Source: Antedon mediterranea (Eukaryota; Echinodermata; Crinoidea; Comatulida; Antedonidae). Taken from it: a stretch of 64,000 bases of DNA. Of the stretch, positions 13,194 to 63,421 are shown piece after piece. Made by a program: the position numbers and the translations under genes. The stretch spans positions 7,505,001 to 7,569,000 of the forward strand of contig NC_092674.1 in NCBI RefSeq assembly GCF_964355755.1. Direction: 5' to 3'. Numbering within the stretch: position 1 is the first letter of the stretch; each line of letters starts with the position of its first letter. Below the pieces are notes generated by a model. It searched no databases and was not told the origin of the DNA. It was given only the letters and a program-made list of their open reading frames with translations.

Positions 13194-16100
13194 ATGAAGT
13201 TTGTTTTATTATCAGCATTATGTTTTACTAAATTACAGTTAATGTATGCTGCACTTGAACCAGGCGTGTTCAAGTATACTGTTTACGTAAGCTTGAAATT
13301 GACATGTTTATATAGATAATAAGGCCTAAAAAATAAAAGAAGAGTTATAATACAGATAGATGGCTCTGGCAATTGAGCGCGGCTAATTCGTAGGCGTCCT
13401 CACAGATAGGCCAAAAACACGAGGGTGGGAACCAGCAGATTAGGATTGGTTTGGGAGGGGGCGGGTGGGGAAGGAAAGTGGTATAGGAAGGGAAGTGGTG
13501 TTGTAGGTTGGGATCAGGTGCCGTTTTCGGCCACCTCGACTTATATGGACTATACCATTATTATGATAGGGGTGTGGTGTATTATGTTTTATGAAGAGAA
13601 GGGTGTCTATTAATGGGAAGATCGACAATACAATTGTTCTGTTATGTAACCTACAGTACAAACTACAAGGAACAATACAGAACATCAACAACTAGCATGT
13701 TAAAAAGGCATGTTATTATTAGGTAGGCCTACTGTGTTAGGGAATGCCAAGATTTTGTAACAATATTACTATATTAACTAAAGATATTTTATATAAAACA
13801 AATTTTATAGACAAATTTAATGAAGAACCATCTACTAACTGGATAAAGCCATTTAGGAAAATTAGTAAACAAGTTGATCATAACGAGTGGTTTTCAAAGG
13901 CCCAAAGCAAAACGAAATTCCATGCAAAACAACGTTAACGGAATATACTATGTATAAAGGAACCAAACCTTGAACAATATTTGTTAGATAAAACTAATTT
14001 TAAGAGTATCAATTTAATTTAAAGCAAGATCAAACTCTCTAGATCGTGAGGGTCGTAGAAAATCCTGGTCAAATCATAACACAGGATTATGTAAGATGTG
14101 TAGTACAAACGAAAAAGAAACAGTAAACCATTTTTTAAAGCCATTTAGGAAAAATAATAAACAAGTTGATCATAACGAGTGGTTTTCAAAGGCCCAAAGC
14201 AAAACGAAATTCCATGCAAAACAACGTTAACGGAATATACTATGTATAAAGGAACCAAACCTTGAACAATATTTGTTAGATAAAACTAATTTTAAGAGTA
14301 TCAATTTAATTTAAAGCAAGATCAAACTCTCTAGATCTTGAGGGTCGTAGAAAATCCTGGTCAAATCATAACACAGGATTATGTAAGATGTGTAGTACAA
14401 ACGAAAAAGAAACAGTAAACCATTTTTTATTTAAATGTCCTTCGTTAAACTCTGTTAGACAATAATTAAGTATGTACCGGGATAATTTTAATTGTGGACC
14501 TCAGTTAAAACACCACTTTATGCTAGACAATTTATTCACTGAAAATGAAACATTAGGAAAAATCTTTGTCTTTTATTGTAAAACATATTTAATGAAAGCA
14601 TGGGTTACTAGATCTACAATGTTATCCGCATTATACCTCTCTCAACTAATTGATTAATATAGTAAACAAGCTACAGACATCTCTATGAGGATGTATCTGT
14701 AAGTTTTATTTATTAGGCCTATCCTGTATTTTTGTTGTTCTGTTTTTATTTTTTTAGTTATATATATTGTACAATTTACGTATTTTGTATTTTCATACAG
14801 ATCTAATTAATTACTTTACATTTTGTTTTGATGTTATGTATTAGTATTTAGAACTTTGTGGCTTATGTTATTTGTAATTTTGTCTTAAATTGGATGCACC
14901 ATTAACTGATAAATGTGTGACACCGATATAAAGGTGATTCCTATGAATAAATACATAAATAAAAACTATATAAGTAGGTATACTTACTTATTATATATAA
15001 AAACTAAACTAAACACTACAGTATAATCAAAATTAAAGCATATTAAATACTAGGCCTATGTTATTCCTATCTAGATTTAAACACTTTAAATTTCAGTACA
15101 ATCGGATTCGAAATTAGACAATCTTAAATACTACAATACAATCGGAATTAAAATATCCTAAATACTACACTACATTACAATCGGTTAAATTACCTAAACT
15201 CTATAATGTTGTGAAATATGTAAAAGAATGTTGGCAAATGCATTCTAATCGGCCCAATCCTATCGGTAGATAAATCATATTTTTTATTTTCTTGAACTAA
15301 ACATAAATAAAACGAAAGAAATAAGGATAGATTTTCGAAAACATAATTGGTCTGACAGTATACATTAATTAAAGTAAAGGAAGTAGAGATTGTTAACAAT
15401 TATTGATAAGTATCTGGCAGTAGTGTTTGACTAAAGCTAAATGGGTGGACATGTTGATCGTAGTTAAGAAGTTAAATACAAGGCTGTACTGCTTGAGGAA
15501 ACGGTTCTTTGGGGTAAAGCAGAATATTTGTACTATAGAATGTTTATGTTTTACTAATCAGTGATGTTCTATTTGGGCATATTGTATATTGGGCTAGGAA
15601 TATCAGTAAGGGAATGTAAGGGGGATAAAGACCGAATTGAGATGGTGCTGGGTAGAGCGTGGAAAGTAATTGGTTTGAGTATGCAAATGCTTGACTCGTT
15701 CTACATGCAGCGAACAGCTTGCCGATGTATTCCATGCTATATTGGAAGACACCAATCATCCTCTTCATGGCGACATTATCAGCTCCGTTTTGCATTCGCT
15801 ATTATAACGTTTTGATGCAAACGTTGTTCAATTAGAACATGTATTTCTACACAGAAACGTTTAAAAACGTGTTTAAACATTTTAGAAAGACCAAACCTAA
15901 AAACATGCAATGCCTAACGCTGTGTTTTCTGGGAACAAAATGGTACAGATTCATTAACAAAATTATAATGTTTATTTGTTTTACTGATTACCTAATAATC
16001 AGTATGTGATAAATGTACTACTGTCATCCTTATTAAATGTACTACTGTGTTATCGTTAGGTAAATTATATTTTTTATTTGTAATTGGAATAAAAACTTTC

Positions 16101-19100
16101 TTTATATACTTTCTGTATCTATAAATCTGTAAAAATTATATAGAAATAAAGAGTCATAATATACTGCATTAACTTGAAAACTGAAATTAATTCTACAGCA
16201 TGCAGGGCGTAGTTGTTTTCCCTTTGTTGCTGAAACAACAAGAAAAACAAAAGAACAAAAGGAGCAGTATTTTAACACATTAACACACTCAATTAATAAA
16301 TGGGACACCCCTATTTTCCCATCTTTTTATAATGGTATAGTCCATACAAGTCGAGGTGGCCGAAAACGGCACCTGATCTGGGGTATCTCCCCATAGTGTG
16401 GGGAGTAGTGTAGGTTTTCAGCGGGTATTTTTCCATAAAATAAAAAATAATAAATAAAATAGGCTGGGAAAAAGCACCGCTTGTTTTTTTGAATTTTAAA
16501 ATAATAATAATATCTTGACACATTTTGATTTTGTTTATTTTAGGGTAACGAGGTAGTTGCTATTTCGAAGAGTATGTATAACAACACCAAGGTGATAGTG
16601 ACAAGTATGTTATCTGCTTTAATTTTTCAACATTTTAAAATTATTATTTTTTTTCAAATATCTAGATTATTGTATAGGCCTACCTATGTCCTATGTGGTT
16701 AATGTTGGAGTTAATAGAACTTTTAAACTTTTAATTATTTATAATAATAATTAACATAAATATCAAAGCACCATTGGTGGTCTGCAAAAAGTCAGAAAAC
16801 TACATGTTTTTAATTTCAGCCAATTGCCAGCAAGATGATTGCAAAATCAACCTAAAGTGGGTTCTCCGTTTCTCTGATTGTGATAATGCATTTGTAGATA
16901 ATGTGAGTAATTCTCAAAGAAATTAAAATTTTAATTGAACATTTCTTTTTATTGTAAATGATTAACTTTCAATCAGTAAATAAATGTTTCATTTTCGACA
17001 ACAAAAGTAACATTGACTATTCATTATTTTAACTATTATTTATACAACACGCTATTCACGCATATTCAACACGCCTACGAGAAGTGTGTTGTATACATCG
17101 AAGAGATTCCGTGTAATGAGATTTTAATTGCAAAAAAGGCTACTTGGCTGTATCCTAAAATTTTGTTGATTCCCGGTGCTGTTGGTGTGTTGGTGTATTG
17201 TCCTCAGGGTATTGTTTTGACCGCTCGTTAAATATAAGCATGTGCTGTGAAAATGTTGACCAAATCTAGTAGATAATTGTGCTTTTTTTTGCATATTTTA
17301 ACTGATTTAGCACTTAACATTAACGCTAATCAAAGGTTGGCATAATTTGGCAAAATGTAGCATAGTTTTATCCTAATTCTAAAACATTTTTTTTCTAATT
17401 TCAAAAGCAGATTTAAAAAATCAATAACTGAATAAACTAAATTTTAAACGAAATCATCCATTTTATTAAAATCCTTAATAAACTAATATTAATTCATAAT
17501 GCATGCGAGTATAATACAACTTAGGATTATGAACTATGGTATAACACGGTATTACGATTTAATGTATAACTGCAAGGTTTTTGTGGGGTTGACCTCGGCC
17601 CGTGCAACACGCTAAAAATTAAAGACATGTTCAAATTTAGGGTGTTGTAGTGTATAAACACAGCCATAGATAAATTTCCAGTCATACCCTGATGAGGAGA
17701 GCCTCACTCAGGTGTAATAAGTTATAACAGCTCAGAGCCATGTCTGTAAAAATCAAAGATTTGGTGGCAGATGTAAAAAAATGGATTTCTCTCAAATTTT
17801 TACCATGAATAGACATTTCAATAAAAAGCAAATCTACATCATTCATTTTAATTTTTAGCCTCCGTTGCCATGACAACGGTCAATTATCCAAATTTTGATG
17901 TTTTTGCCATTTTTCACAGATTTTCTAATTAAATGAACAAAACAAAAATATCGTTCATCAAATTAGTACCAATATCCATTTTAAAAAACCTTAAAAAACA
18001 AAATTTGTCAAAAACACAAATTTGGCCGTTGCCATGGAAATATATATAATAATAATAAATAAATAAAAAACACATAATTATACAGGATTAGATACCTCAT
18101 TACAATTTTGACATGTTAAATTACCTTGGTTCAAAATCAAATGTATAGGTCATGTGTTTAAATCTTGTAATATTTGATATAAATGATTTAAGTTTTTTTT
18201 CTCAATATCCAGAGATTAAAGTGTGAATATAATATGATTTTGTTTTAAAATTATATTTATTTATAAACTGTTAGAAAACTTTCTTTTTTTAGATAAATAC
18301 TTCACTCTTGTTGAGCAGCCCTGAATCATCAATGCTACAATTTGAAGAAATAATCAGATTTCAACAATCTATTGTGGGCAATGAGACAGAAACTTGTGAC
18401 CATAAAACTATGTTTCAGGTAACAAATGTCTTTAGCTATTGAAGAATACAAACAGGTAATACAATGCTTCCTCCTTAGGAAGGAATGAGGGAATACCCAG
18501 ATCTGGCCTGCCCACCTGCAACCCCCCCACCCCCCACCGTTCAGGTTACAAGCCCCGAAAATAGCACACTTTGGTTAAGAAGGCAAATTCAATGCTTATT
18601 ATAACCAGGGGAGGACCCAGGGGTGTTTCCCTAGTGGCCCCGGCAGCACCCTTTAATTTAGTACTAGAGGTTGTTTCTGCCATTAAATTAAAATTTAGTT
18701 CCATTTCATCGTATACAATATCCATCCGGACCTGGAACTTGATAGGCTTAGTAGTTACAGAGTTGCAGGGCATTTTATCATTGTTGAATGTTTTGATGTT
18801 AGCTTATAATTGTTAAAATTTGTAAAAGAAGTAATATAATGCTGGCGCCAACAAATTTAACGACCTTCACAACCAAAATATTTCTTTGTAACAAAATTTA
18901 TTTTAAATGGAATGCTACGAAAATAATCCTCTGCTTCATCAGTGCATGAGTACCTAATAACCAGACAAGGACGTATCTTTGTTACGTTTTACTATCAATC
19001 CATTTTCATTTCACGCAATCCATTTTTCAACAATATAATAGTATAATAATAACATTTTGATTGAATCGTGAGGGATTAGTTATAGTGTTCGACTTTGAAT

Positions 19101-22100
19101 ATTAACCATTGGTAATTTACCGAAAATCCAAAATGAACTTGTGTTATAAAATACAAACAAAATTATTCAATTAAAGAAATGCTCTACTACACATGAGAAA
19201 TAGGCTGTGTTTATACAACACGCTTCTTATTTACACGCATGTTCGTAGGATGCGTGTTATCACAGATCAAGGTCAATCCCCTAATCTGCATCGTTCATAC
19301 ATAAAAAATGAACTACCGTGTTGAACGTTCGTGTGTGCTTTGTGAACAGGAAGTTTCGTCAGATACAATAGTATTAGGCCAAAAAAAATTAAAGAAATTT
19401 GTTGGCCACGCCCGACCGACCCTAAAGTGACGAAAATGAAGGTCGGCTTTTTTTTTGTGAGCCAAACGGCAATCGTGAAACCAAATAGTGAAAACATATT
19501 GTCTTATTCGCCAAATTGGTGAATATATTTCACCTCTGCCAGACGTGTAAAAAAGAAGTGTGCAACCAACCGTGACTCAATCATGCGATAACCGGAATAC
19601 GCGATTATTAATTTTGGGGGGATCAAAGTTTTAACTAAATAAACGCTTTGATTACATAGTGGTTGAGACAGGTTTTTAATAGTTATCACATTTTTAAACA
19701 CCCTCATAATTAATGGACTCTACCAATGTTGATCTGCAAAGATCGTACATCGCACGAGGTTGTTAAGGCGGTGTTTTTTGGTTTTACCAAAGAGTATATT
19801 CGGTTTTACTGTACAGAGTACTACGATCCGATTACGAACTTGTTAAACGAGTCGCCAAGCAAATAGGCCTATACATTTAATAAAAATTTACCTAAGATAA
19901 GATTGTCGTAAGCTCTTATGTTCAAACTTGTTATTTATATAGCGATATAATCCACCCGTTCCGGCATGCATGTTAGGCCTCTCTAGCCTAGGCTTACTCC
20001 TCGCGATCGATCGATGTCTCTCCTGGTGGGGAATTACTTTAAAAACGATAAGCGGCATCTTTTGAATACTTATTTTGGTATCAGTCCTTCCTGAATACTG
20101 TAGGCATAGGCAAGGCTGTTGATTATTACCATGGAGATGACATAATATCCGACGAAAGCTGGTTAGTAATAATTTATTACATTGGAGAGGTCAACTTGTC
20201 CCCTGGACTTCCCCCTCCTCTCGCAATGAACGGCAGTACAGATCTTCCCTATCTAGGCTCTATATTCATTCCTTTTAAATCTTAGGCATATTGCCAAGGC
20301 TAATAATCGATTTGTCCATAATTATTTTTATTTTTCCATAATCTAAGTCCAATTTTTAGGCCAAATCATAATTGTGCGTATAGTTTTGTATTTCCGTTGC
20401 GTGTAGTAGCCTATTTATCTTCATTTCCGTACGTCCATAAATATTAGGCCGAATTTCCGTCGTAATTTATGGACATTTCAAAATTTGAACTGTCGTGTTA
20501 AACCGGTAGCAGAGCAAAGTTTGCTTCTTTTTGCAAATGTCCTATTATTATTTTCTTTGATTTATTTGGGAGTGTGGTTTAAAACAACATTTTTGTAAAG
20601 TTTATAGTGAATAAATAAAAATGAATTTTTGGAAATTGTGGTTTTAACATCTGACTTTATTTAGCATTTTTAAAGGAATTAAAATTCAAAATAATACAAT
20701 TTAACGTTTGCTCAATATATTTATATAGCAACAGCTTCATATTTTTTGTATAACTTTAACAAATTATTAGTTGATAATTAATTTACATTAATTGAGCACA
20801 GTTATTAGAATGTATTACCGTACCAAAAGTACTGTACCTTCATCGGGAACTTCCATGTGACATTCACATGAATTTTACGTCCGATCAGCAACAAAATTAT
20901 TAATTGATAATTCAAAAATTAAAAAAAAAATTCCAAAAATCTTTTATTGTCCAATTGCATACAAAATACATACATGCCATTGGAAATGTGTCGTTTGATA
21001 CACTACATACATAACAATTAAAATTATATAGAGTTATACTGTACATCATTCACAATACTTGTTACAAGAAAAGAAATAAAAAATTTAAATATAGAAAAGC
21101 ACACGTAACTAAAACTAAATGCATTGTGTTGAGGAAAGACTAGGCGTATTGCAGATTATTGTAAATTATTGAAGTATTGTATGTACTATATTAAAATATC
21201 ATAAAAAAATACTCTATTTAAAAATGTAAAATATCGCAAAATCAGTCCATTCATAATTGTATATTTATCTATTGCACTGCTTTAAATTAAAAGTTTTAAT
21301 TGAACTTGGTACAAACGATTTACTATATCTCGTAGTTCGTGAGAGAATACTCCGTAAACGGCACCCTGACCTTAAAAAGTTATACTCGGCATATAATGGA
21401 TGGTTTGTATTTGTCATTATTCGTTTTACAAGTGATAACACTGATTCATCAAATCTTATATTAAGATCTGTTTCAGGGATATTTAGCATTTTACTAGCTC
21501 TTCGTACGATTCTATATAGTTTTCCCTTATCTTTTACATTGAGACTATTTCCCAACACAGCATAACAGAAAGATATCACGCTAAGTACCATCAATTTGTA
21601 AAACATGGTTAGAATTTTGTTATCTACTTTAAATTTCTTAAGTTGATGCATTAGGTGCAGTCGTTGCTGACCCTTTTTATATAGCATGTTTGTATTTTTG
21701 CTCCATTTTAATTTATCATTTATGATTGTTCCTAAGTACTTGTATTCTTTGACAACTTTTATACATTCACCATCAATTACTACATCATCATGATTACTTT
21801 GTTTCTTTCTAAAATCGATAATCATTTCTTTGGTTTTCTTAGAATTTAAAATAAGATAGTTTTCTTTACACCACTCTGTAAACAACTTTATTTCGGTAAA
21901 ATACTTCGAAAGCGATTCAGCATCTTTAATGTTACCAGCTATGCAAGTGTCATCGGCATATTTTATCAAACGGCAGGAGTCGGTGGCATTTCTACAGTCG
22001 TTTGTATACAGAATGTATAACAAGGGAGACAGAACGCAGCCTTGTGGTGAGCCTGTATTGGTAAATGTGGTTGTTGATGTACAGGTAGCATTTCCGAATT

Positions 22101-25100
22101 TAACTTGTTGTGATCTGTTTGTTAAAAAGTCTTTTATCCAGAGAATGATAGAAGAGTTTATATTCATGTTAATAAGCTTGGACAGGAGAATGTGAGGTTG
22201 TATTGTGTTGAAGGCGGAACTGAAGTCAATGAAAAGAAGGCGTGTGCATGTGTTGTTCTTGTCGAGATGTTGTTGAGTGTTGTGGATGAGAGTGGCTGTG
22301 GCATTGTCTGTCCCTCTGTGTGCTCTATATGCGAATTTGCATTGGATCTAACAGGTGGTCACTTTGATCTTTAACACGCTTACTAATTATTCTTTCCATG
22401 CATTTCATAACCAGGGACGTTAGGGCAATTGGTCTATAATCATTAAGCGTTTTAACATTATTTAATTTGGGAATAGGTACAATCAAAGAGTGCTTCCAAA
22501 TTGCTGGGATAGTGGTTGTACGGAGAGAACATTCAAAAAGTTTCTGAAAGACATGTCCTATCTGAGCAGCGCACTCTTTCAAAAGTTTTCCACATAACTT
22601 GTCTGGGCCACCAGCTTTGTTTGCATTTGTTTTTTTCAGAAGGTTGACAACATCATTCTCTGTGAAGTAATCTGCATCATCAGTTTATACGTCAATATTC
22701 TTGCAGGTATCCGCTAACTGCGACTTAAAGTCATGAGCATCAAACCTACTGTAAAATAAGTTGAGTTCTTCAGCTAGTTGCAGATCATTGTATCCTGATA
22801 AAAGTTTGGGAGGACATGTTTTGTTTGATCCTCCAATTATATATTTTATGTCTTTCCATGCTTTCTTCGTCTGCCTATTATTTATATTCCTTTCTAATCT
22901 GTTTCTGAACTTTTCTTTGCCTCTTTTTACAGCCATATCAAGCCTTTTCTGTGCTTCTTTTAACTTAATTTTGTTTTTACTTGCAAAAGCTAGCTTCTTT
23001 TCTACGATTTATGTTTTTACCTCCTTGGTCAGCCAGGCTTTATTATTTGGATACTGCTTTACTTTCTTGGTTGGTATAGTGATATCTTGGCAGAAGTTTA
23101 AATATGATGTTACTGATTCCGTCATTTCATCAATACCTACAGAAGAGTCAGTAAAAATATCCCAATCTGTCGCTTCCAGGCATCCGCGCAACTTTTCGAT
23201 ATTGTCTGTAGACCATTGTCTAACATACTTTATTTGAATCTTTTCAGTTTTTAATCGTTGTCTGTATAAAGGTAAGAGATGTACGACATTGTGATCTGAT
23301 GACCCGATGCTTGGCTTTACCATAGATTTGTAGGCGTCTTTGATGTTTCCATAGCAGAGATCTATAATATTGTCACCTCGGGTTAGACACGTGACATACT
23401 GCTGAAAATTTGGAAGGATATCATCGAGTCTGCACTTGTTGAAATCTCCTAAGACAAAAATTGGACACTCTGGTGACTTTCTTTGCGCGATGTGGATTTG
23501 CTCAGCGATTTTTCCTCGGCTGCTGTTGATGCATTTCCGTCTGGTGGTACATATACGATTGCTACCTTAACAGAGCCAAATTCCCGTGGGAGGTAGAATG
23601 GTCTCATTGACAAGAAGAGGATTTCAAAATCGGGGGTACATTGACGGTTGATTATATTAACATTTGTGCACCACGAGTTATAAATGTAGGCACAGACTCC
23701 ACCTCCTTTGGATTTGCCTGAGTCATCGGTCCTGTCTGCTCGCACAACAGAGAAACCATCCAGGTTTATAACAGAGTCAGTAATATTTTCCGTCAACCAA
23801 CTCTGCCGCTGGAGGAAAATATCTATCGTGTTTAATATTTTTTAAAGTGGGCGCCGAACGTGAGCAGATAGCTCACTAAAAAATTCCATTGCGCATGACA
23901 TGATTTATTATAGTATGTTAGCACGTGCCGTATACCTGTAGCATAGTAAAGTAATAAAATCGCGTTTAGTGTGCGTCCGATAGAACGCGTTCAAAGTTTG
24001 CGGCAAATTTTGTTGTGAGCCAAGTGTTACTCGTGCCAGTTGGCTCAGCCGAAAGCTTGTGCGCCAGGCTTTAGAGGAAAAGAAACTTGTTGTATGTGTC
24101 ATTATGATTCACACCGGTGCGCAATTCAGCCCAGTAGGCTGCGAGTCACAAGTTATTCCCCTCCATTTACATTTAAAAAAAAAATGTTTATTTGCCTCTA
24201 TATTTTCCAGTGTCTTTCTGTTTTACAAACCATTATTGCATTAACGTAATTGAAGTTGACCTTCATTCAGTATCTCATTACAATCTTATGTATACTGCAG
24301 TATATAATTTTAATTGCAGTTTGCAGTACGTGACATAACAATTAATTATGTGCTATAATTTTATTTTGAATTTCGTAGGATCAATCAAATCTTGCAGAAA
24401 TATACTGTTTGAAAAATCATGAAGGTGAGCTTGAGCTTTGCGAGGGCATAAAAGGAGGCAACAAAGAAAAAGGAACAAACTTTAAAACAGAAGTGAGTGA
24501 ATTCTGAATTTAAAACTGGTCAAAAATATTATTATTAAGGTAGTTAATTATTATTAATGATAATCTTTGTTTAATAATTAGTCATTTGAATAATAGTAAT
24601 TAAAAATTTATTCCCCAAAACATCATAAATAATGCTACATATAAAGCTGCATACTGTATTAAAAAGACCAGCTGTCTGTCGGCTATAATTCGTGACGTAG
24701 CAAATAGTCTTTATTATAGAGACCATTGCTATACCGTGGTCTAACCTTTAAGCGGTTTTAAAAAATAAAGGAGTCTTAAAACAGTCTTAAACCTCTCCTG
24801 TTGCTTGTACGTATTATTAGGGACTTTACGAAACACGACGGAAAGCCATAGGACGGTTCTCATGAATAATTTATGCATGAGCTTTTACAATGTGGGCAGA
24901 GCTTAGCGTGAAAGTCTGTTACTTAATTTTACATTTAAACGATAAAGTTGCCATTTTCCCGTTTATGGAGAACGACTATAAATAATGTAGGCCTTATATA
25001 ACCTTAAATATACAGTTCAAATTACACTTAAAAACATGGAATTTTCAAAACTCTAAATAATATTTGAACTTCTAATTTAATTGTTCAATGAAATAACATT

Positions 25101-28100
25101 TTTATTGGATTAAAATGTTAAAAGTGGCGTTTGAATGCGAGGCCCAAGCTATGAAGGCTAGGCCTATGTTGTATCACCAGAGCCAAGCGACTCAGAAGGG
25201 TCCTGCGATACGAGACAGGGGAGGAAGGGATACTGCCGGTTGACGTCTTCGCGAAAAGGTGCGTAACTAATAAAACGGCTATTTTGACTGTATATGATTT
25301 TACACTCTAGCGAACACAGGATATTCGTCGTCCTCCCCTAACCGACATATTTCGTAAAGGCCCTATTGATCGTGAAAGACAACCAATTTAACAAGTTTTA
25401 AGTGAAAATCAAATGATAAGTGTGGTGTGGACTGTTATTATTGATATGATGATTGATGAGGTGGCTTTATAGAAATCTGCCCCAGATTAAAGTTTGCCAG
25501 TATAGACCAGAAATGATGACAAGTGAAAAGAAAAATCCAAAGGCAAATTACTGAAAAAATGACAATGCTGTGGGTATTAATTAGTTTTATTAGTTACGCA
25601 CCTTTTCGCGAAGACGTCGACCGGCAGTATCCCTTCCTCCCCTGTCTCGTATCGCAGGGTCCTTCTGAATCACTTGGCTCTGGTGGTACAACATAGGCCT
25701 AGGCCTGGGTGTCACGAAACCTAAGACCACGAAAGCTAAGACCCCCTAAGACCTAAGATCACGAAAGCTAAGACCCAAGACCTAAGATTACAAATTCTAA
25801 GATATACTACAGCTTAAAAACAATACTTGTTTATCCATACATAATTTTAAACATAGTAGGTTTCATTTATTACCATAAATATAATTAAATACTACCGCAA
25901 AACATAGATAAACTCACGTTATTTTCGCCCGTTGAGTAAATGTATATTTTTTCTTTACAACAAACAAACTTGACGGATTGTTTGTTGGTATATATTTACT
26001 CCAATTGTGTTGGTTCAGAGGATTTTTTTCTTTCGCACCTGCCTTTCTTGTATTTTGACTCCAAATTTGTTAACTGACTTTATCCTGAATACCACACTTT
26101 AAAATTAGGACTTATAAACTTTCAGAAGGAGAAACACATAAAAACAAATAAATAAATCCTTTAAATTGATGATTTTACAGACGTGTTTCTTTGTATACTG
26201 TAACTCCTCCCATGCTCAATGTTTTTGTTTCTATGGAGCGCCAAAAGAGCAACAATAATAGAACAAGTATAAAAACAGAAAGAAAACGAAAAAAAAAAAC
26301 AAAAAAAACTTATTATCATGATTTTTAAATTAAAATTTATTTGCGAGTATTTATTTCTTCGTACTAGCATGATTATACTATTATCATTACAATTTTAATT
26401 TTACATTGTTCCATCCACACTGTAGATGGACTCCACAGAGTTTTCAGCCCTCAATATAATTTTTGCTCTTTTGACGTTCCATAGAAACAAAAACATTGAA
26501 CATTGGGTAGGCCTACAGTCAAAAAAAAAAAAGCGAAAAGCTAAATCAAAATGTAAAACAGCCAGAAAAGTTAGCAGAGCTTTTTGGGCAACACTAGCCC
26601 TTCATCAGTGCAAGTGCAAGTTAAAAGAAAAATATATATAAGTTGAATTTACCACTAGTTAAATTAATAACATTTACATATTATCATTTTATATCACACT
26701 AGTCTTATTAGTAGGATTAGGATTCTGCAGATGATCAAATCTTCCTTCTTTTTAGCCTCCAAATAAAGTGACCAAAACATGGCAGGATGGCCGATATATT
26801 TTTGTGTTTTCCATTGAGACCGATTGTATCAATAAAGTTGACAGTAAGTTGTCTGCATTTACAGTCAACTCTCCCAATACCGGACACCTTTGGGCTGGCC
26901 AAATATGTCTGGTTTTTCAGAAAGTCTGGTATTCGGATTGTGTTTTTAATGGTAAAAATGAATTGGGGACTGTTTAGACTTCAAGAAAAGTCTGGTATTA
27001 GTAGAGTTTCCGGTTTTCAGAGATTGACTGGGGAGAGTTGACTGTATACTCATGTACCGTATACTGTATTTTTTTTTTAAAAGTTAATTCTGGCTTGTGT
27101 AACGTCTGCTTGAGGGGGAGAAGGGTAATCTGTTGAAATGAGGATGGTCATCTAGCAAAGTTCACATTATACTGTGCTGTATTTTATAAACGCAATACAT
27201 TTATTATGTTTTTTTTTCAGTTAATATTGAATTTCAAAATGAGCATGGATACCTATCAGCAACGCAAAGACCCCTGCTTACTGTAGGTTAAATTGTTTTA
27301 CATTTTTACCACATTGTTACAACAGCCAAACCCTGACACTCCAAAATTTGGTGTCGCCATGAATAAACCAAATTTTACTCATGTTCATAAATTTTACTCA
27401 TGTTCATAAATTTTACTCATTTTCATAAATTTTACTCATTTTCATAAATTTTACTCATGTTCATAAATTTTACTCATGCTCATAAATTTTACTCATGTTC
27501 ATAAATTTTACTCATACATTTTACTCATGTTCATAAATTTTACTCATGCTCAAAAATTGTACTCATGTTCATAAATTTTACCCATGTTCATACATTTTAC
27601 TGATGCTAAAAAAATTTTACTCATGCTCATAAATTTTACTCATGCTCATATATTTTACTGAGGTTCATAATTTTACTCATGACTCATAAATTTTACTCAT
27701 GCTCATAAATTTGACTCGTGTTCATAAATTTTACTTATGCTCATAAATCAAATACTCATACTCGTAAATTTTACTCATGCTCATAAATCTTAATCATACT
27801 TATAAATCTTAGTAGTCATGTACATTTTATGGCATTAAAATCATATTTTCTACCAGTCTTTAGTAATTTCATCACATTTCATTTCCTTTCAATTTCTTAT
27901 GCATCCTTTCCTATGCACACAGCTACAGATATTACATTAAATGTGCCAATTGCTTTTCTGTTAAATTTAAATACAATTCAGGAAATTTCATATCAACCAC
28001 CATCAATCATCACCGCATATAAATCATATAAATTAATTCTAGTTATTTCAAATTTATGCTCTTCATATTTTACAGAGTAAATAACAAATTAAATAATATG

Positions 28101-31100
28101 TTGAATATATATTTTGGATTGACCTTAATTGTAAAATTTACAGAATTGTGTTGTCCTTGCCAGTGTGTTAAATAATAAAAAAAACTGTTTTTATCCATAG
28201 TTTTATGCAGTGATGTGTGCTGCATATGCTATATTAGCAGTGCTCTACCTTGTCATGATGGTTTATCGATGGAGAGATATGCTTAGAGTTCAGTATTGTA
28301 TCTGTGGAGTTATTATATTAGGTAAAATCATTGTTGTCTTCTTTTTTATTTACTTCTCACTAAGATGTACATACATTAATAAAGGTGGTAAACACCTCTA
28401 AAACGGTCCAGTCCCAATTACACAGTGGTAGTACACTGAGGTAACCCCGTACTTGTCTCGAAAAATATACTAGGTTCTTCAAAGTGTACATGAGCTAGAT
28501 GTGTACACTGGACCTACGGTTTATAGTTCTAATCCAAGAAGACTCGTTCTACCACCAGAACCATGGAGTGAATGAGCCTCAAACCTTTGCCGATGTTATG
28601 GCTATGTAGTTACGGTTCCACTGTCTTAACCGCTCGGCCTCTTATCCACTCAAATACTTAATTGACAACATGCCTACAGTACTGTATGACATGGTTGGCT
28701 GAACTAAGGATGGCATACACAAGTATCTAAGGTGCACAGATTTTGTTTAATACACATCTTTTTTGAACCATCATTTCTTTAAAACGGCTTTTAATGAAAC
28801 TCTCAATGAGCATCTATGACCTTTGCTTACACGTAGTTCATATATATTCCTTTTTTCCATGGGGATATAATATGGTTACCTACTTGTGTGTAGAAAAATG
28901 ATTAAATCCATATTGCATTTGGAAATTCATTTAATTTTTTTTATTTCAAGATATAGCACTATAGACTAAGCACTGTGGCCGCTAAAGAAATATGTGAGAA
29001 CTAAAACACTGAAAGTTTTTTAGATTCAACAGCTTCATAGGCTAGTGTTGTGAAAAAAAGAACCTATTAACTGTCCCTATTTACATATTGCCATGAGGAG
29101 AATTCCCTCTTTTTACGAGCATGTAGGCAAGTGCATCTATGGTTTTAGAATAAGAGTTTTGAATAGTGAAAATGATCTTGTTAGGTGTACTATGAACCAT
29201 CTGTTACGATCTTCAAATCTCTTCACTAAATGGGAGAAAATCCTATTTTAGTGTGATTTTCCATTTTGTATTTGTTGTATACAGTATATGGAATATTCTG
29301 AAATAAAGTGATCAATCAATATTTTTCAATTATACTTTAGGCCTCCTTGAGAAAGTAGTGTTCTACTCCGAGTACCAGCACATGAACGTGACTGGTTTCT
29401 CCTCTCCAGGTGCTTTGATCTTTGCTGAATGGGTCTCCTGTCTGAAGAGGACAGTCGCAAGAATGCTTGTTATTATTATTAGCATGGGATACGGAATTAC
29501 AAAGTAAGTTATTACTTTTTGTTAACCTCTGTAATAAATAAACCACTTTTGAGGTTATAGTGTAAAGCTTTGTCTACACTATCAAAATAGTTTGACAAAA
29601 AAAAGTTTGATGTTCCCAAGTATGGTAGTGATGTGACATCATCATGTCCATATATGGTGACATAACATTTTTTTGTCATATAAAGTTTGAGCTTTAGATG
29701 ACTGTACAGTACTTCAGAGGACAAAAATATAATTGCTGCATTACAGTGTAAACGGTTAATGTGAGTGGTCTTTATATTCTTTGGAGCGGAAAGGCAGTAG
29801 TGCCATAAAATGTAGCAATACAATTGGCACAGGTTCAAGGCTCTTCATGACAATATTTCTTTGACAAAGACTTAAAACTGGAAGTCAAGTGTACAGTAAA
29901 CTCTATGAGAGCCCGGAAGAATAGGAGATTACCCTGGTGCACTGGTCCGTCTCAGCTTCTGTTGTTCGTGGTTGTGTCTGCAGTGGGTCTTTCCCCAATT
30001 GAGGATGAATATTAATACAAAATACATAAATGTGGTACAGTAATTATAAATAAACAAACAAAAACAAACAGAAAGCTGTCTATGTTAATGTATACAATTC
30101 ATAGAAAATGGTGTGAATGCAACTCATGCATTTTGTTGCTATTTTTTTTTATTGATTAAACTTATCCGTGAGACAATTAAGATTTGTTTTTACTTTTGTA
30201 TATAGTTTAGATTTCTTTTAGTTTTTTTTTTCTCTCATTATGTTTTCCTTTTTTTGTTTCTTTTTCAAATTGTTATGTTTTGTTTTTGGACCGCTGCACC
30301 GCATGTTGTGAGTGCCACCGATCCAAAGGTGAATGAGTCAACAAATAAATAAATAAATAAAGTATGTACTGTACTGTACCAAGTGCAGATCCAGAGGGAT
30401 AGCTAAAAATTATGAAGTACTGTACTATTTTTTGTTTGAAACAATTCTGGATCTGCACCTGTGTCCGTCCAATTAATTAAACTTAGTTCATTTACAAAAT
30501 CTGTCAACCTTTCATTTTTCTGTTTATTCAGACCACACCTAGGACCTCAGTTGTATCGTGTGATTGGAGTTGGATTTTTATTCTTTGTGCTAAGCTTAAT
30601 TGAAGCTTGTTTGCGTGTACAAGGCGTAAGTTAATTCGTTTTAGAATCTTTATTTAAGTTGTTAGTATAATTATGTGTTTTTTAAAAAAACTTTGATTGT
30701 GATTTATTATTCGAACTGGTCACTTGTCAATTGTTAAATGGTTTGCATTGCATCTACGTCCTTGCGTTGCATCCTAGTGGGAACCAATCTTTATACTAGT
30801 TTATTGTTAATTGTTATGGTCTAACCCATATGTTAGTCCCATATGAATAGTCCCGGGCCGAATCGTCTGTGGCCGAATCGTGTTGGGGGGCCAAATCGTG
30901 TTGGGACCTTATCATCCCACTACTGTTTTGTTTGTCGTGGTCAAGGATAAGCCTGGTATTCTAAATAATAGAGAGATTCAAACAATTCAATACAAACAAG
31001 TATTGCACCCTTTTAAATAACTTGTTGTTTTATTATGTTTCTAGAGTTTACAGCAAGACCTTGTGGCAATTATACCTCCTGCTTTTCTTGATTCATTTAC

Positions 31101-34100
31101 TTTTAGTTGGATATCCTTTTGACAATTTTACTAATATATACAAATAATGAACGTTTATATTCATGGAATGGTACAAATAATGGCATGAGGTGAATAACGA
31201 AAGGATATATTTCAATGAGGAGAAGCAGAGTTGAAATGTAATCTTTTGTCATTCACTGAATGACTCTTTTTACCATCCCACGAATGTAAACATTCATTTT
31301 TTACTCGGGGTACCCGAGTCTAGGACTTACTCATTTTCTCCTCTTCTTCCTCCATCTGGACACTATTAAGTAAAAAGTGCGATTTTTAAAGTACTACTCC
31401 TCCCTTATTCGTTGTAATATTGAGCTGGGATTTGGCATGAATATACTACAGGGACATGTCCTCAAAGCTATAGAGCCATATTTTTAAATTTCAAACCGGA
31501 TGCAGCCATATCACGTCTCAAAGATGGTACCGTATAGCCGTATTTGGTAGAGGTTATTGATGTGTATGTGGCGTCATATCCCGTCATATGACATAATTAC
31601 AGCTTCTTTTGCTGCACCCCGAGTATCGCACATTCGTGCTTTTTTGTTAATTAATTTGTTTAATTAAGAAGCCACAATGTGTGACACACACCACAGCGTT
31701 ATGTAGTTATATGCGGCTTCTTGGCGTAGTGGTTATCACGTCTGTTTAACACGCAGAAGGTCCCCGGTTCGAGCCCTGGCGAAACCTTTTTTTTTTTAAA
31801 CTTTATGGTGAAAAGTACTGTATACGCAATATGATATACAGTATATCTTATTTTTATTATTTTAAAAAATATTTATTTTGTGTAATCGGTAATTATCACT
31901 TTTACACATGTTTATCTTGCTTTGTGCTTATTACCATAATAAGTTATTTGTAATTTAAATGGATTAAAAAACTTTGTGTACTCCACATTTTTGGTGTAAG
32001 TGGTTTCGTAGTGTAGTGATTATCAAGTCTTCTTAACACGCAGAAGGTCCCCGGTTCGAGCCCTGGCGAGACTATTTTGCTTAAACTTTATGGTGAAATA
32101 TACTATATACGTAATATGATATAGAGTATATATCTCGTTTTATTACTCGGTGTACCTGAGTCTAGGACTCTAATCTTTTCCTCTTCTTCTTCCATCCAGA
32201 CACTATTGAGCAAAAAGTGCGATTTAAAAAGTACTACTCCTCCCTTATTCGTTGTAGTATTGAGCTGGGAATTTGGCATGAATATACTACAGGGACATGT
32301 CCTCAAAGCTACAGAGCCGGATTTTTAAATTTCAAACCGGATGCAGCCATATCACGTCTCGAAGATGGTACCGTATAGCCGTATTTGATGTGTATGTGAC
32401 GTTACATCCGGTCTTATGACGTCATTACAGCTTCTTTTGCTGTACCCCGAGTATCGCACATTCGTGCTTGTTGTTTGTTGTGTTTTGTTTTGATCGTCCA
32501 ATCAAATGACAGGAATTTATTTAGGTGTTATATAATACTATTATTTTATTTACTAATTTACTAGTACTAAAATTTTACTATTTAAGATTACTATTAAATC
32601 CTATTGACCATTTTGCTTTAAATTACAGTTTTTTCAGGTAAATAATTTGTTTTTTGGATCCAATTTTAGGTCAAACTAATATGTGACATTAAGATGGCAT
32701 TTTCAGCAAAAACATTTATAAAAATGTTTTTTTTAGTGGACAATACATCTTTAACCCTTTGCATAAACATAAGACAATTTCTTTTGTTTATGTAGGAAAA
32801 ATACATATTTATCGTCAATCATTTTCGTCCTAGTATAAATCAGTTATGTTTGAATTACTAAAAAATTTTTGAGATTCCAGTTTCTGTATGTTTTGGTCAA
32901 GAAAAATTCTAGTAAATTACTTGATCCGAATTTTATTTTATAAAATAAATTTGTATTTTCTACTGTAGACTGTACATCAAGACCTTGTGGCAAGTGTTCC
33001 TCTTGCTTTTCTTGATTTATTTATCTTTTGCTGGATATCCTTTTGACAATTTTACTATTTTTATGAACTATCGTTCCCAGACACAGACATCTCCATATGG
33101 TGAACTGGGACAAAAGTGTAGGCAAACGGCAAAGGTTTTTCAGTTTTAAATGAATGTTGTATACGTTTCTTTATAACGTACAACATATTAACCATCTGCA
33201 TACACCGCCTTCATAATCAAATGAGTATTAATATGCAAATTAGCTATAAAACCCCATATTTTCACAATATCTCCAAAACTAATATTCCATTCATTACCAC
33301 TTTTGTGGCAAACCATTTATTAAAGTAAAATGCTAAGCATTTTCATTGACCAATTATCATGCATGTGTAAAAGGTGAATAGGCAATTTTAGTCATGCTTA
33401 AATGATTTTTGTCAATTTTTACCATTTAGTTAACTACAGCATAGTAGAATAAAGTATGTTAATTATATGACTCGGATTACTGTCCTTACATATATATTCA
33501 CATTGTTAAAAACATGAGGAACACAAGAAAAATATTGCTACGCCGTAACCTTGCCAAGTTCTCATTGTACCGCCATTTCACCAACTGTTTTGTTTTCAAC
33601 ATCGTTGCATCCATTGTTTTCCTTGTTTGGTCTTTAAAGGAGCATAAAGCATCTGTTTGTGTCACTGTAAGTGTTTATATTTGACATTTCACTAGCATTA
33701 TTAGGTTAAGAGAAGTAATAATATTTTGAGTGAGGGGCTGAGCAGCTAAATAAGACAGTGGAACCATAATTACATAGCCATAACATCCGCATGTGTTTGC
33801 GGCTCAATTGCTCCATGGTTCTGGTGGTAGAACATATTAAGGCAGAAAAAGACTTGGAGCACGGGTAACTGCTAGTACTATTTAATAATGTAACAGTTGT
33901 TCTTATTATTGTTTGTTCTGCTTATTACATTTTTTTTGTGGTAATTTTAGAAATGGAAAACCCTTTGGTTAGATGATGCATTCTGGCATATTCTATTTTA
34001 CATCATGTTGGCCATTATCATTATTTTGTCCAGCAACCAACATTATGCTTACTCACCACTTACTGATGACCTTGATGGCGATGATGAGAAAAAAGATACT

Positions 34101-35045
34101 ATGATCCCAGACTCATTTCGTATGTTTAAAATCCTTTGTCTAAAGCTTTGTCTGCAATATTAAACTTGTTCAACAAAACAGTGTGATGTGCCCAAATATG
34201 GTAGTGATATGGCAAAATATGGTAGTGTTATGACATCATCATGTCCATATACGGGCACATTTGATAGTGTAGACAGAGCTTTATACATTGGTAAAACCAA
34301 TATATGTATCGAATTGGAAGAAATTCATAGCATTTTTTTTACGCCTAAATGTTTGCTTTCTCCACATTTACATTATTAATTAATTTGTTTTTTTCAGAGG
34401 GCATGAAGATGCGTAATGTAAAATACACAGATTCTGCAACAACTGAAGTCGAAGAAAATGTGTAAGTATAAAGCAATGAGATAGTTGTAACTATACCACT
34501 GGCAACTGGTTTTTAAAAAACTTGAGGCAGATCCAGGTTGTTTGGAAATAGGGAAGTGACCAAAAAAAAAAATTACTTTTTATTGATTGATTGTATGCAA
34601 CTCAACTTCCTATCCACCTGGTTTAAACACAGCAACTACTCTTATACCCTTTTCACATCTGCATAGTATTGTTTGTGATCTCCTGATTTATTACATTACC
34701 CTGAGAAGTCTTGGAAGGAAAGCATAGTTGCACGCTATTTGATTACTATGATTGGTCAGTTTAATACCAGGGCTATACATGTGTGCGCAAAGAACTCAGG
34801 AACATCTCGGAAAAATCTGGGGCCTCTCATCAGTGTGTTTTTCTCCTGAGATTTCACAGGGGATCTCTGTTTTTTCCACAAAACTGTACTCACAAACCTG
34901 GTTACAACTTGTTAAATTTTGTGAAAAGGGTATAAATCAAATTTATATGGTATACATTTATACACATCATAGTATTTATTTCTTTTCTAGGACTGTTCCA
35001 CCTGCATATTATGATATTGATGAAAAGACACTTACAAATATGTAA
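13194..35045 (+). CDS. TMEM87 (A/B not resolved): TMEM87-like GOST-family seven-transmembrane Golgi protein, 15 exons
   Basis: Exons read in one continuous frame: 13194-13286, 16544-16604, 16820-16902, 18293-18418, 24379-24492, 26756-26843, 27221-27282, 28201-28321, 29341-29503, 30532-30625, 31045-31110 or 32969-33034, 33502-33666, 33951-34119, 34398-34461, 34991-35045. Except at the U12 intron, all junctions are GT-AG and phases match. The product is about 507 aa, slightly shorter than the ~555 aa I recall for human TMEM87A. The N-terminus ([19 protein letters not shown]) is a signal peptide. A luminal GOLD-type domain with paired Cys follows, then the seven-helix core beginning [20 protein letters not shown]. 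Family hallmarks are [33 protein letters not shown] and W-LDDAFW. The tail is acidic ([11 protein letters not shown]). Family members sit in the Golgi and have been linked to retrograde transport and cation conductance. The start is the first ATG before the signal peptide. Several introns carry LINE, MITE, SINE and minisatellite insertions. Confidence 0.9.
13511..13575. repeat. Left arm of a ~60-bp inverted repeat pair
   Basis: ATCAGGTGCCGTTTTCGGCC and the following bases to about 13560 reappear inverted at 16325-16377 with few changes. The pair encloses 2.75 kb that includes a LINE fragment. It may be the ends of one transposon or two separate copies of a small one. Confidence 0.55.
13744..14962 (+). 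mobile_element. 5'-truncated non-LTR retrotransposon, C-terminal end with 3' tail
   Basis: Broken frames encode the C-terminal end of a LINE ORF2-type protein. They include a zinc-ribbon pattern ([20 protein letters not shown]) of the kind that follows reverse transcriptase in many LINEs, then a tail ending [12 protein letters not shown] before a TAA at 14655. Stops occur at 13936-13938 and 14462-14467. A 3' UTR of about 300 bp ends in GAATAAATACATAAATAAAA, a typical simple LINE tail. It lies in intron 1 of the TMEM87-like gene in the same orientation. The reverse transcriptase itself is absent. Confidence 0.6.
13845..14428. repeat. 292-bp tandem duplication inside the LINE fragment
   Basis: The block beginning AAAGCCATTTAGGAAAA at 13845 starts again at 14137, and the two copies are almost identical over about 290 bp (one visible change is 'agatcgtg' against 'agatcttg'). 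The duplication repeats the zinc-ribbon coding part and adds to the frame disruption. Confidence 0.85.
16322..16385. repeat. Right arm of the ~60-bp inverted repeat pair
   Basis: TATAATGGTATAGTCCATAC through GGCCGAAAACGGCACCTGAT is the inverse of 13513-13560. It sits about 160 bp before exon 2 of the TMEM87-like gene. Confidence 0.55.
17035..17666. mobile_element. Possible MITE with TTTATACAACACGC-like ends
   Basis: The left end has TTTATACAACACGCTATTCA and the right end, inverted, gives GGCTGTGTTTATACACTACA. A related left end (GGCTGTGTTTATACAACACG) is at 19203. The ends are imperfect and no target duplication is clear. It lies in intron 3 of the TMEM87-like gene. The open frame inside (to 17231) is not recognised. 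Confidence 0.35.
17733..18047. mobile_element. Short, internally deleted relative of the 3.7-kb element
   Basis: The first ~190 bp match the left arm of the element at 9298 (CTGTAAAAATCAAAGATTTG onward). At about 17926 the sequence jumps to the part of the right arm seen at 12776-12895, ending at GTTGCCATGGAAATATA. The outermost part of the right arm is missing. It lies in intron 3 of the TMEM87-like gene. Confidence 0.7.
20943..23838 (-). mobile_element. Non-LTR retrotransposon (Rex1/CR1-like), 5'-truncated and frameshifted
   Basis: Read on the minus strand from about 23838. First comes the end of an APE-type endonuclease: [40 protein letters not shown], then GDFNKCRL and SSDHNVV after a frameshift near 23520. 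A linker follows, then reverse transcriptase: [58 protein letters not shown] and the catalytic KYADD. Stops or frameshifts occur near 23450, 23010, 22685 and 22320. The C-terminal frame ends at 21265. The 3' end carries AATAAAAG near 20945. The element is antisense within intron 4 of the TMEM87-like gene and cannot encode an intact protein. Confidence 0.85.
24660..24818. mobile_element. Left part of a MITE (family D), split by a later insertion
   Basis: GGCTATAATTCGTGACGTAG and the following bases match the MITE at 35255-35662. The match stops at CGTATTATT and resumes at 25360 with ATTGATCGTGAAAGACAACC. Confidence 0.6.
24819..25362. mobile_element. Insertion with AGGG(A/C)CTTTACGAAA ends inside the family D MITE
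   Basis: The left end AGGGACTTTACGAAA and the right end TTTCGTAAAGGCCCT are inverted repeats. The flanks read ...CGTATTATT and ATTGATCG..., giving a 3-bp ATT duplication relative to the uninterrupted MITE at 35 kb. No coding capacity is seen in about 545 bp. Confidence 0.6.
25163..25706. repeat. Inverted repeat, ~110-bp arms about 310 bp apart
   Basis: GGTCCTGCGATACGAGACAG and its surroundings (25163-25275) return inverted at 25580-25706 with over 90% identity by eye, including the distinctive TTCGCGAAGACGTC. The left arm lies inside the 24819-25362 insertion and the right arm lies outside it, so the order of events is not simple. Confidence 0.7.
25711..26519. mobile_element. Foldback transposon family C, 3'-truncated copy
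   Basis: It begins GTCACGAAACCTAAGACCAC followed by repeats of CGAAAGCTAAGACC, and matches the complete copy at 51722-52821 almost base for base until about 26519, where the right arm stops. Part of the palindrome is present (GGAGCGCCAAAAGAGCAA near 26236 and its inverse near 26464). It lies in intron 5 of the TMEM87-like gene. Confidence 0.75.
26862..27044. mobile_element. Short pogo-like MITE, 183 bp
   Basis: The left end CAGTCAACTCTCCCAATACC and the right end GGGGAGAGTTGACTG are inverted and flanked by TA on both sides. The interior repeats TCTGGTATT/GTCTGGT. The left end lies about 18 bp after the donor of exon 6 of the TMEM87-like gene. Confidence 0.75.
27371..27815. repeat. Minisatellite, 19-20 bp unit, intron 7 of the TMEM87-like gene
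   Basis: About 20 copies of TCATAAATTTTACTCATGT with small length and base changes; the copies near the 3' end are the most diverged. No function is evident. Confidence 0.9.
28402..28650 (-). mobile_element. SINE with tRNA-Leu-like head
   Basis: On the minus strand the head reads GGCCGAGCGGTTAAGACAGT, the A-box region of a tRNA-Leu. A body follows with GCCATAACATCGG and CCATGGTTCTGGTGGTAGAA. A related fragment in the opposite orientation is at 33735-33846. Both lie in introns of the TMEM87-like gene. Confidence 0.6.
29564..29697. mobile_element. MITE family M1 copy
   Basis: It begins TAAAGCTTTGTCTACACTAT and contains 'tatggtagtgatgtgacatcatcatg'. The right end (AAAGTTTGAGCTTTA) is shortened. 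It lies just after exon 9 of the TMEM87-like gene. Confidence 0.7.
30285..30362 (+). repeat. Probable LINE 3' tail with (AAAT)n
   Basis: GTGCCACCGATCCAAAGGTG followed by AACAAATAAATAAATAAATAAAG resembles the 3' end at 14920-14962 (ACACCGATATAAAGGTG...AATAAATA). It is only a tail fragment. Confidence 0.4.
30745..30797. mobile_element. End fragment of foldback family FB-A
   Basis: TACGTCCTTGCGTTGCATCC followed by TAGTGGGAACCA is the right end of FB-A. The left arm is absent. Confidence 0.6.
31045..31110 (+). CDS. Alternative exon 11a of the TMEM87-like gene
   Basis: It encodes [20 protein letters not shown] plus SW, part of a membrane helix that aligns with the VVLDDIILAVIDSIFVW part of human TMEM87A, quoted from memory. 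The acceptor is ordinary (TTTCTAG). The donor is ATATCCTTTT, a perfect U12 AT-AC type donor. The exon is 66 nt, phase 0 on both sides, and shares 13 of 22 residues with 11b. Confidence 0.8.
31301..31640. mobile_element. MITE family R, copy 1, between exons 11a and 11b
   Basis: The ends ACTCGGGGTAC and GCACCCCGAGT are inverted. The interior matches copy 2 at 32142-32468 over nearly its whole length (AAGTGCGATTTTTAAAGTAC, GATGGTACCGTATAGCCGTA). Confidence 0.7.
31715..31787 (+). tRNA. tRNA-Val(AAC)-like sequence 1, probably a pseudogene
   Basis: A D-arm region (GCGTAGTGGTTATCA), an anticodon loop TTAACAC with AAC and flanking stem TCTGT/GCAGA, and a B-box GGTTCGAGCCC are all present. The acceptor pairs at only about five of seven positions and the T-stem has one mismatch (CCCGG/CCTGG). 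A 12-base T tract follows, as for a Pol III terminator. It may be a decayed gene or a SINE head. Confidence 0.45.
32002..32074 (+). tRNA. tRNA-Val(AAC)-like sequence 2
   Basis: The acceptor GGTTTCG pairs with CGAGACT, allowing wobble. The D-arm is GTGTAGTGATTATCA, the anticodon loop TTAACAC and the B-box GGTTCGAGCCC. There is one mismatch in the anticodon stem (TCTTC/GCAGA) and the same T-stem mismatch as sequence 1. The shared mismatch and similar 3' flank (AAACTTTATGGTGAAA) show that the two copies are related by duplication or belong to one repeat family. No long T run follows. Confidence 0.5.
32142..32468. mobile_element. MITE family R, copy 2
   Basis: It is parallel to copy 1 and begins ACTCGGTGTACCTGAGTCTA. 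The right end is GTACCCCGAGT followed by the same ATCGCACATTCGTGC flank as copy 1. The shared outer flank suggests that the element end lies slightly further out or that a larger segment was duplicated. Confidence 0.7.
32969..33034 (+). CDS. Alternative exon 11b of the TMEM87-like gene
   Basis: It encodes [20 protein letters not shown] plus CW. It has the same length, phase, U2-type acceptor (ACTGTAG) and U12-type donor as 11a. The first 23 intron bases after the donor are identical to those after 11a, so the exon was duplicated together with its donor. The changed residues (I/S, P/L, S/L, T/I, S/C) fall within the membrane helix. Confidence 0.8.
33035..33501 (+). other. Putative U12-type AT-AC intron feeding exon 12
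   Basis: The donor is ATATCCTTTT at 33035 (and at 31111 for exon 11a). Exon 12 must be read in the frame giving KFSLYRHF. Reading upstream in that frame, a TAA stop occurs at 33460-33462, and no AG dinucleotide exists between it and about 33516. AC at 33500-33501 keeps the frame; AC at 33488-33489 also would. A U12-like branch sequence, GTCCTTACA, lies 13 nt before the first, though it matches the TTCCTTRAY consensus only partly. Confidence 0.7.
33735..33846 (+). mobile_element. SINE fragment related to the tRNA-Leu-like SINE
   Basis: GGCTGAGCAGCTAAATAAGA, then GACAGTGGAACCATAATTAC and CCATGGTTCTGGTGGTAGAA match the head and body of the SINE at 28402-28650. It is truncated after about 110 bp and sits in the intron after exon 12 of the TMEM87-like gene. 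Confidence 0.55.
34141..34284. mobile_element. MITE family M1 copy
   Basis: The ends are TAAAGCTTTGTCTGCAATAT and GATAGTGTAGACAGAGCTTTA. The interior includes two 'atatggtagtg' repeats and GACATCATCATGTCC. It begins about 20 bp after the exon 13 donor of the TMEM87-like gene. Confidence 0.75.
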
Positions 35046-62725: not shown

Positions 62726-63421
62726 TTAGATAATTGATTCAAGGAGTTTTTCTTTAACGTTGTTCCATTTTCTTTCTGCTTTGTTTAGATTACATAAGTA
62801 TTCGTTTGAAATTAAATTTTTTAGTTCTATCTTAAATAAATTCCAAGTGATAATCCGTTTGCTTGTTTTATAAATAATGCAAGATTTGTAAATACTAAAT
62901 GTAAATAAAGAGATGAGTTCATTAACAAGCGTGTTCTGAGTTCCTAAAACTATGTCTGACCATTCGGGGAAACTTGGCCGTAATGTTTCATTAGTCGGAA
63001 TACATTTAACGATCAGTTTACGGAACTTCCCTGATTGAATGCTATTACAGGTGTACAACATATGTTTTTCACTTTCTATTTCTATACAACACTTTTCGCA
63101 ACAATCACTTTCATTAAGATTCCACTTCTTTAAGTTTTTTCTACAAGCTAAGATACGATGTAATAATTTAAAATTAAATTGGGCGATTTTTGGTAAATGT
63201 TTCATATTGTGAACTTTACAGTACCATGTCTTGTCCCAGTCTATTTCATTTTTACCTAACTCAACTTCCCACTTTGCTTGTATATTGGGGATTTTAGCAA
63301 CCTTGCTAACAAAAAGGGTATAATGAAAAGATGCCTTGTGTTTTTTATGAAATACGGTTTCTTTGACTTGCAGATTATCATAGTTATTGCTTATTACATT
63401 ATGTATTACTTGTTCCTTTAT
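62726..63421 (-). mobile_element. C-terminal end of an L1/Tx1-like LINE, truncated
   Basis: The minus-strand frame is open from about 63421 to the stop at 62726, without needing the internal ATG at 63205. It includes AKWEVELGKNEIDWDKTWYC, FNFKLLHRILACRKNLKKWN and a zinc-ribbon pattern CCEKC...EKHMLYTC that lies after reverse transcriptase in L1/Tx1-type elements. The catalytic part is missing (a stop lies just upstream). The second zinc-ribbon LINE fragment in the window, at 13.7-15.0 kb, appears to be a different family. Confidence 0.75.

Follow-up and report, generated by a model that had tools for sequence, protein, structure and literature searches.

Whether two homologous exons of one gene can enter the same message, and what would keep them apart if they cannot, was the question raised by the window, which is the whole stretch of 64,000 nucleotides (nt) analyzed from Antedon mediterranea (C5:7505001-7569000; "C5" and "C10" are contig labels in this genome). 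A TMEM87 gene lies on its forward strand at 13194-35045, and exon 11 of this gene is present twice, as 11a and 11b. Three TMEM87 genes were found in the genome: the window gene, a tandem gene copy (copy 1; C5:7454224-7481530, with matches to all 15 exons) and a gene on C10. From the sequence, it is likely that 11a and 11b form a mutually exclusive exon pair enforced by the incompatibility of U2-type and U12-type splice sites, and that the duplication is specific to this lineage, with an origin independent of the mammalian one.

Exon 10 (30532-30625; + strand, as for all features of the gene) is followed by a U2 donor, GTAAGT. Exon 11a (31045-31110; 66 nt, 22 residues) was delimited by its open frame and splice sites. 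It is preceded by a U2-type acceptor (ttattatgtttctag, 31030-31044; best branch-like score within 60 nt, -0.3) and followed by a U12-type donor, ATATCCTTTT, at 31111-31120. Exon 11b (32969-33034; 66 nt, 22 residues), delimited in the same way, is preceded by a U2-type acceptor (ttgtattttctactgtag, 32951-32968; the top branch-like score, 5.2 bits, lies 44 nt from the AG, and the second is -3.8) and followed by the same U12-type donor at 33035-33044. Both donors were located by motif search and fit the U12-type donor consensus RTATCCTT. Exon 12 (33502-33666) fits the frame of human TMEM87A from I378 on and is preceded by ...TGTCCTTACATATATATTCAC, with AC at 33501. Because the intron ends before exon 12 with AC, both downstream introns (11a-12 and 11b-12) are AT-AC. 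By this numbering the duplicated pair is exon 11, and the U12 intron lies between exons 11 and 12.

The two copies are in phase 0 and identical at 54/66 nt and 13/22 residues, with identical codons for all 13 shared residues, and 23 identical intron bases lie directly 3' of both ATATCCTTTT donors. The repeat unit spans 92 nt at 87% identity, and a genome-wide search with the 11a region recovered the 11b region at an expectation value (E) of 3.6e-24; chance resemblance was ruled out by these two results. The ATATCCTTTT motif occurred twice in the window, counting both strands, against 0.39 expected (two or more in 4/100 shuffles). This count alone is weak evidence, and its weight comes from the exact placement of the motif at the ends of homologous exons. 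Homologous adjacent exons, equal length and phase, and incompatible sites between them, by which a U2/U12-incompatible pair is defined, were all found. The first-pass annotation had described this anatomy exactly (coordinates, lengths, phase, 13/22 residues, U2 acceptors, ATATCCTTTT donors and 23 intron bases). The intron between 11a and 11b also contains two tRNA-Val(AAC) genes or tRNA-derived repeats (31715-31787 and 32001-32075, +; 84% alike over 82 nt) and a block of ~340 nt that is repeated (31297-31644 and 32139-32472, +; 87-96% in pieces), possibly a mobile element.

The U12-type branch site consensus is near TTCCTTRAY. A U12-type branch-like TGTCCTTACA and AC acceptor, common to 11a and 11b, were placed at 33481-33501; the same sequence is present in copy 1, and the C10 gene has TTCCTTACA...TTCAC, so that the branch motif is kept between the C5 and C10 TMEM87 genes. 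Scored with a hand-written matrix, the branch-like GTCCTTACA of the window reached 1.1 bits and the TTCCTTACA of C10 3.9 bits; the matrix discriminates poorly, giving 8.5 bits for the ordinary U2 acceptor of exon 2. There are 13 intron bases after the A of TTAC in GTCCTTACA, and the optimum U12 branch-to-acceptor distance is 11-13 nt (PMC3584512). Among the small nuclear RNAs of the minor spliceosome, U11 gave 2 genome matches over the Rfam cut-off (best 88.6 bits), U12 gave 1 (125.7 bits) and U6atac gave 2 (136.6 and 33.7 bits), which argues that the minor spliceosome is present in the organism.

Frame and nonsense-mediated decay were ruled out as the enforcing mechanism. Double inclusion of 11a and 11b and skipping from exon 10 to exon 12 both keep the reading frame, and frame therefore does not enforce the choice. 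Steric closeness was ruled out by the 1858 nt between 11a and 11b. The proposed mechanism lies in the splice sites: an exon 11 bordered 5' by a U2-type acceptor and 3' by a U12-type donor would have been tandemly duplicated to give the pair. For the U2 donor of exon 10, the AG of either copy would be a usable partner but the AC before exon 12 would not; the U12 donors of the two copies, in turn, could splice to this AC but scarcely to the AG of 11b. The predicted outcome is 10-11a-12 or 10-11b-12, with neither double inclusion nor double skipping. Since joining of 11a to 11b and skipping from exon 10 to exon 12 are both disfavoured by the U2/U12 wiring, one copy would be expected per mRNA. The choice would depend on which is engaged first, the U12 donor of 11a or the U2 acceptor of 11b, and by analogy with mouse it is probably tissue-regulated.

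It had been claimed on first pass that only one copy fits and that U12 donors pair only with U12 acceptors. The splice-site anatomy agrees with the wiring that the first claim presupposes, and the same U2/U12 logic would also block skipping of both exons, which that annotation had not considered. The second claim stands as a preference and is overstated in its absolute form: U12 AT-AG combinations are disfavored and not impossible, and other termini occur rarely (PMC3584512). Occasional joining of 11a to 11b, by the U12 machinery or by a hybrid event, could draw on such termini and would give a product in frame; it is nonetheless highly improbable, as no branch-like match above -3.8 bits was found within 43 nt of the 11b AG and a second copy of transmembrane helix 5 (TM5) would be expected to upset the topology.

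The mechanism and the gene are already known, and the new element is probably a parallel origin at the matching exon. In mouse Tmem87b, exons 11 and 11a (72 bp each) are mutually exclusive by RNA-seq, with no 11-11a reads, isoform use by reverse transcription PCR and tissue-dependent choice, and the intron that separates exon 11 from exon 12 is of the U12 type (Olthof et al. 2019, PMC6717393). Mouse Tmem87a is grouped with Tmem87b among genes that skip an exon upstream of a minor intron (PMC6717393). A 2021 review pairs MAPK8/9 and TMEM87a/b as examples of the U2/U12-incompatibility mechanism (PMC8329584). The first-pass annotation, which knew of no report for TMEM87, was wrong on this point; its parallel with the duplicated exon of MAPK8 was correct. 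In the JNK genes MAPK8/9, interlocked U2 acceptors and U12 donors of exons 6a/6b (7a/7b) force the use of one of two (PMC8329584), as proposed here, although these are kinase genes unrelated to TMEM87. The window pair is like the mouse pair in family, exon number, equal length of the two exons, and the combination of U2 acceptor and U12 donor; it differs in being 66 nt rather than 72 bp and in being known from genomic sequence, whereas the mouse pair has transcript support. The MAPK8/9 exon pair was reportedly the subject of Chang et al. 2007 (cited in PMC8329584). No duplicated exon is known to be involved in the Drosophila prospero and dUrp twintrons. These are like the present case in that overlapping U2 and U12 introns compete (PMC3584512).

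A literature search on TMEM87 with exon duplication returned 0 papers, and no report of an exon 11 pair outside mammals was present among the matches listed, most subscription papers being outside the scope of the search. In a human survey, U2/U12 incompatibility accounted for five cases, or 0.79% of clusters (PMC5740500). TMEM87 was not named in the main text of the 2022 survey of human tandem-duplicated exons or in that of the 2017 human survey.

Gene identity was established by protein comparison, for which the entries of human TMEM87A in PDB served as references outside this genome. The coding model has 15 exons, with splice sites and an open frame throughout: exons 1-5 at 13194-13286, 16544-16604, 16820-16902, 18293-18418 and 24379-24492; exons 6-9 at 26756-26843, 27221-27282, 28201-28321 and 29341-29503, followed by exon 10; 11a or 11b as exon 11; and, after exon 12, exons 13-15 at 33951-34119, 34398-34461 and 34991-35045. 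The 507-residue protein (11b version) matched human TMEM87A at E 8.3e-88, with residues 32-486 of 507 aligned, and its membrane part matched PF06814 (GOST_TM) at 195.2 bits with 11a and 198.6 bits with 11b (cut-off 25.2). By these matches the window gene is a member of the TMEM87 (GOST) family, and the TMEM87-like assignment made on first pass was borne out.

In the alignment to human TMEM87A, exon 11 residue k corresponds to human residue 355+k from k=7 onward. Most of TM5, beside the lipid slot, is encoded by exon 11. Human TMEM87A binds a phosphatidylethanolamine whose phosphate is coordinated by D371 of TM5 and whose acyl chain is in contact with C375, W376 and F379 in the gap between TM5 and TM6 (PMC11239671); in an earlier TMEM87A structure the slot lies between helices H5 and H6 (PMC9711517). 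D371 is kept in 11a, 11b, exon 11 of the C10 gene and 11a', the counterpart of 11a in copy 1. The window exons differ from one another at human positions 364, 365, 367, 372, 374 and 376 and at the first three exon residues. 11a has S/T/S at 372/374/376 and an extra proline at 367, and 11b is closer to the C10 form. Mean hydropathy over the last 12 exon residues was 0.34 for 11a, 1.88 for 11b and 1.61 for C10. Inclusion of 11a may thus give a more polar TM5 with an extra proline facing the lipid slot.

The relative age of the duplication was read from the three genes. In copy 1, 11a' is 66 nt long, 11b' is 54 nt long after an in-frame loss of 12 nt, and the 11a'-11b' intron measures only 475 nt. 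Like differs from like at 3/66 (11a/11a') and 7/54 (11b/11b') positions, against 11-12/66 and 15-16/54 across the pair. 11a' pairs with 11a and 11b' with 11b, and the exon was therefore duplicated earlier than the gene was in tandem. Copy 1 was considered as a truncated pseudogene and this was rejected: ~9.6 kb upstream of its exon 5 is without exons 1-4, but a longer stretch matches all 15 exons. In the C10 gene, which is of canonical length (548 residues), a single exon 11 could be detected, and its donor is the same. A 9-kb stretch of C10 that includes the whole exon 10-12 interval contained a single TATCCTT and one exon-11 match (E 1.1e-6; next place 0.10).

Synonymous divergence (dS) was tabulated with 11b' left out. 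It was 0.15-0.25 for 11a or 11a' versus 11b, and 1.5-3.4, near saturation, for each of 11a, 11a' and 11b versus exon 11 of C10; between the window gene and the C10 gene it was 0.29-0.79 over exons 4, 8-10 and the last 135 nt of exon 12. Fisher tests on synonymous counts rounded to integers gave p 0.009 (3/14 vs 11/15) and p 0.008 (2/14 vs 10/15). The intron flank common to 11a and 11b is absent from C10. The exon duplication thus looks younger than the split of the C5 and C10 genes. It would then be independent of the mammalian duplication, whose origin presumably lies before the TMEM87A/B split. On these comparisons the duplication looks lineage-specific and parallel to that of mammals. It is rather more probable than otherwise that duplication of this TMEM87 exon occurred on two or more occasions in animals, because any exon with a U2 acceptor and a U12 donor is mutually exclusive once duplicated, with no regulator needed.

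Several observations count against a mutually exclusive pair of recent and separate origin. The window branch site is imperfect, at 1.1 bits versus 5.2 for the chance-like match 44 nt from the 11b AG. The dS values come from ~14-15 synonymous sites, with saturation close wherever they exceed 1. The origin was judged by within-genome comparison, and an old duplication could pass for a young one if gene conversion had acted between the exons. Between the tandem copies, 11b and 11b' are identical at 47/54 positions in addition to the 12-nt loss, and the downstream intron is better kept (138/145, p 0.06); 11b is about as conserved as its upstream flank (80/100; in another alignment, 128/139 over 150 nt). 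In copy 1, 11b' has N in place of D371. The nonsynonymous share of 11a/11b is higher (9:3 vs 44:46) and not significantly so (p 0.13), and positive selection on the pair, for which this ratio is suggestive, was set aside for the same reason.

The conservation of 11b bears on whether a single copy is used, the other exon, more likely 11b, being a decaying duplicate that is rarely or never spliced in. 11a and 11a' are identical at 63/66 positions, well above the intron just downstream (105/132, p 0.003), with 33/60 in the upstream 60 nt; 11a looks constrained between the tandem copies and 11b does not, and the N of 11b' points the same way. The window 11b nevertheless keeps its open frame, acceptor, donor and D371, retains residues in common with C10 (V2, S9, L12) and gives the better Pfam score, and where C10 allows an 11b/11b' difference to be polarised (A8 to T, D16 to N), the derived state is that of copy 1. 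Use of a single copy is judged unlikely, and the case for two functional exons is stronger in the window gene than in copy 1.

The possibility of conversion bears on an ancient duplication shared with vertebrate 11/11a, in which C10 would have lost one copy and conversion would have kept 11a and 11b alike. Divergence of the tandem copies is uneven along the gene (identity 367/374 in intron 6, 902/914 in intron 7, 416/456 in the 11b-12 intron, and 203/273 aligned in 934 columns in intron 12), which makes conversion plausible, and the mouse pair has the same exon number and the same order relative to the U12 intron (PMC6717393). This history requires one loss plus repeated conversion, however, and is at odds with the intron flank that 11a and 11b share and C10 lacks and with the difference in exon length from mouse Tmem87b. 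Shared ancestry is doubtful on these grounds, to a somewhat greater degree than use of a single copy.

A separate and recent duplication would make this locus a young, apparently independently evolved case of a rare splicing logic at an exon matching the mammalian one. It would also make it possible to test directly whether an exon at a U2/U12 border is predisposed to give rise to a mutually exclusive pair. If so, hybrid exons with this combination of acceptor and donor would have all that is needed to seed exon pairs, and the lipid slot would have been varied repeatedly through TM5 of TMEM87. Two versions of TM5 would then be favoured, a point of relevance to the disputed function of TMEM87, suggested to be a carrier of hydrophobic cargo (PMC9711517) or a Golgi channel (PMC11239671).

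Other features were recorded in the window and the genome. The last exon of copy 1 (C5:7481476-7481530) has an early in-frame stop and a shorter tail; the window gene and the C10 gene also have different C-terminal tails. A reversed 52-nt segment that matches the end of exon 8 at 94% identity lies in intron 12 of copy 1 (C5:7479622-7479673, -). A further GOST-family gene, perhaps GPR107/108-like, lies at C4:8176682-8179448. In the window, retroelement pieces with reverse transcriptase (PF00078) and sub-threshold zf-RVT (24.5 bits, cut-off 27.5) matches are found at 21265-22167 (-) and 62726-63205 (-), and two B-box zinc-finger (TRIM-like) reading frames at 3464-3913 and 5658-6065 (+).

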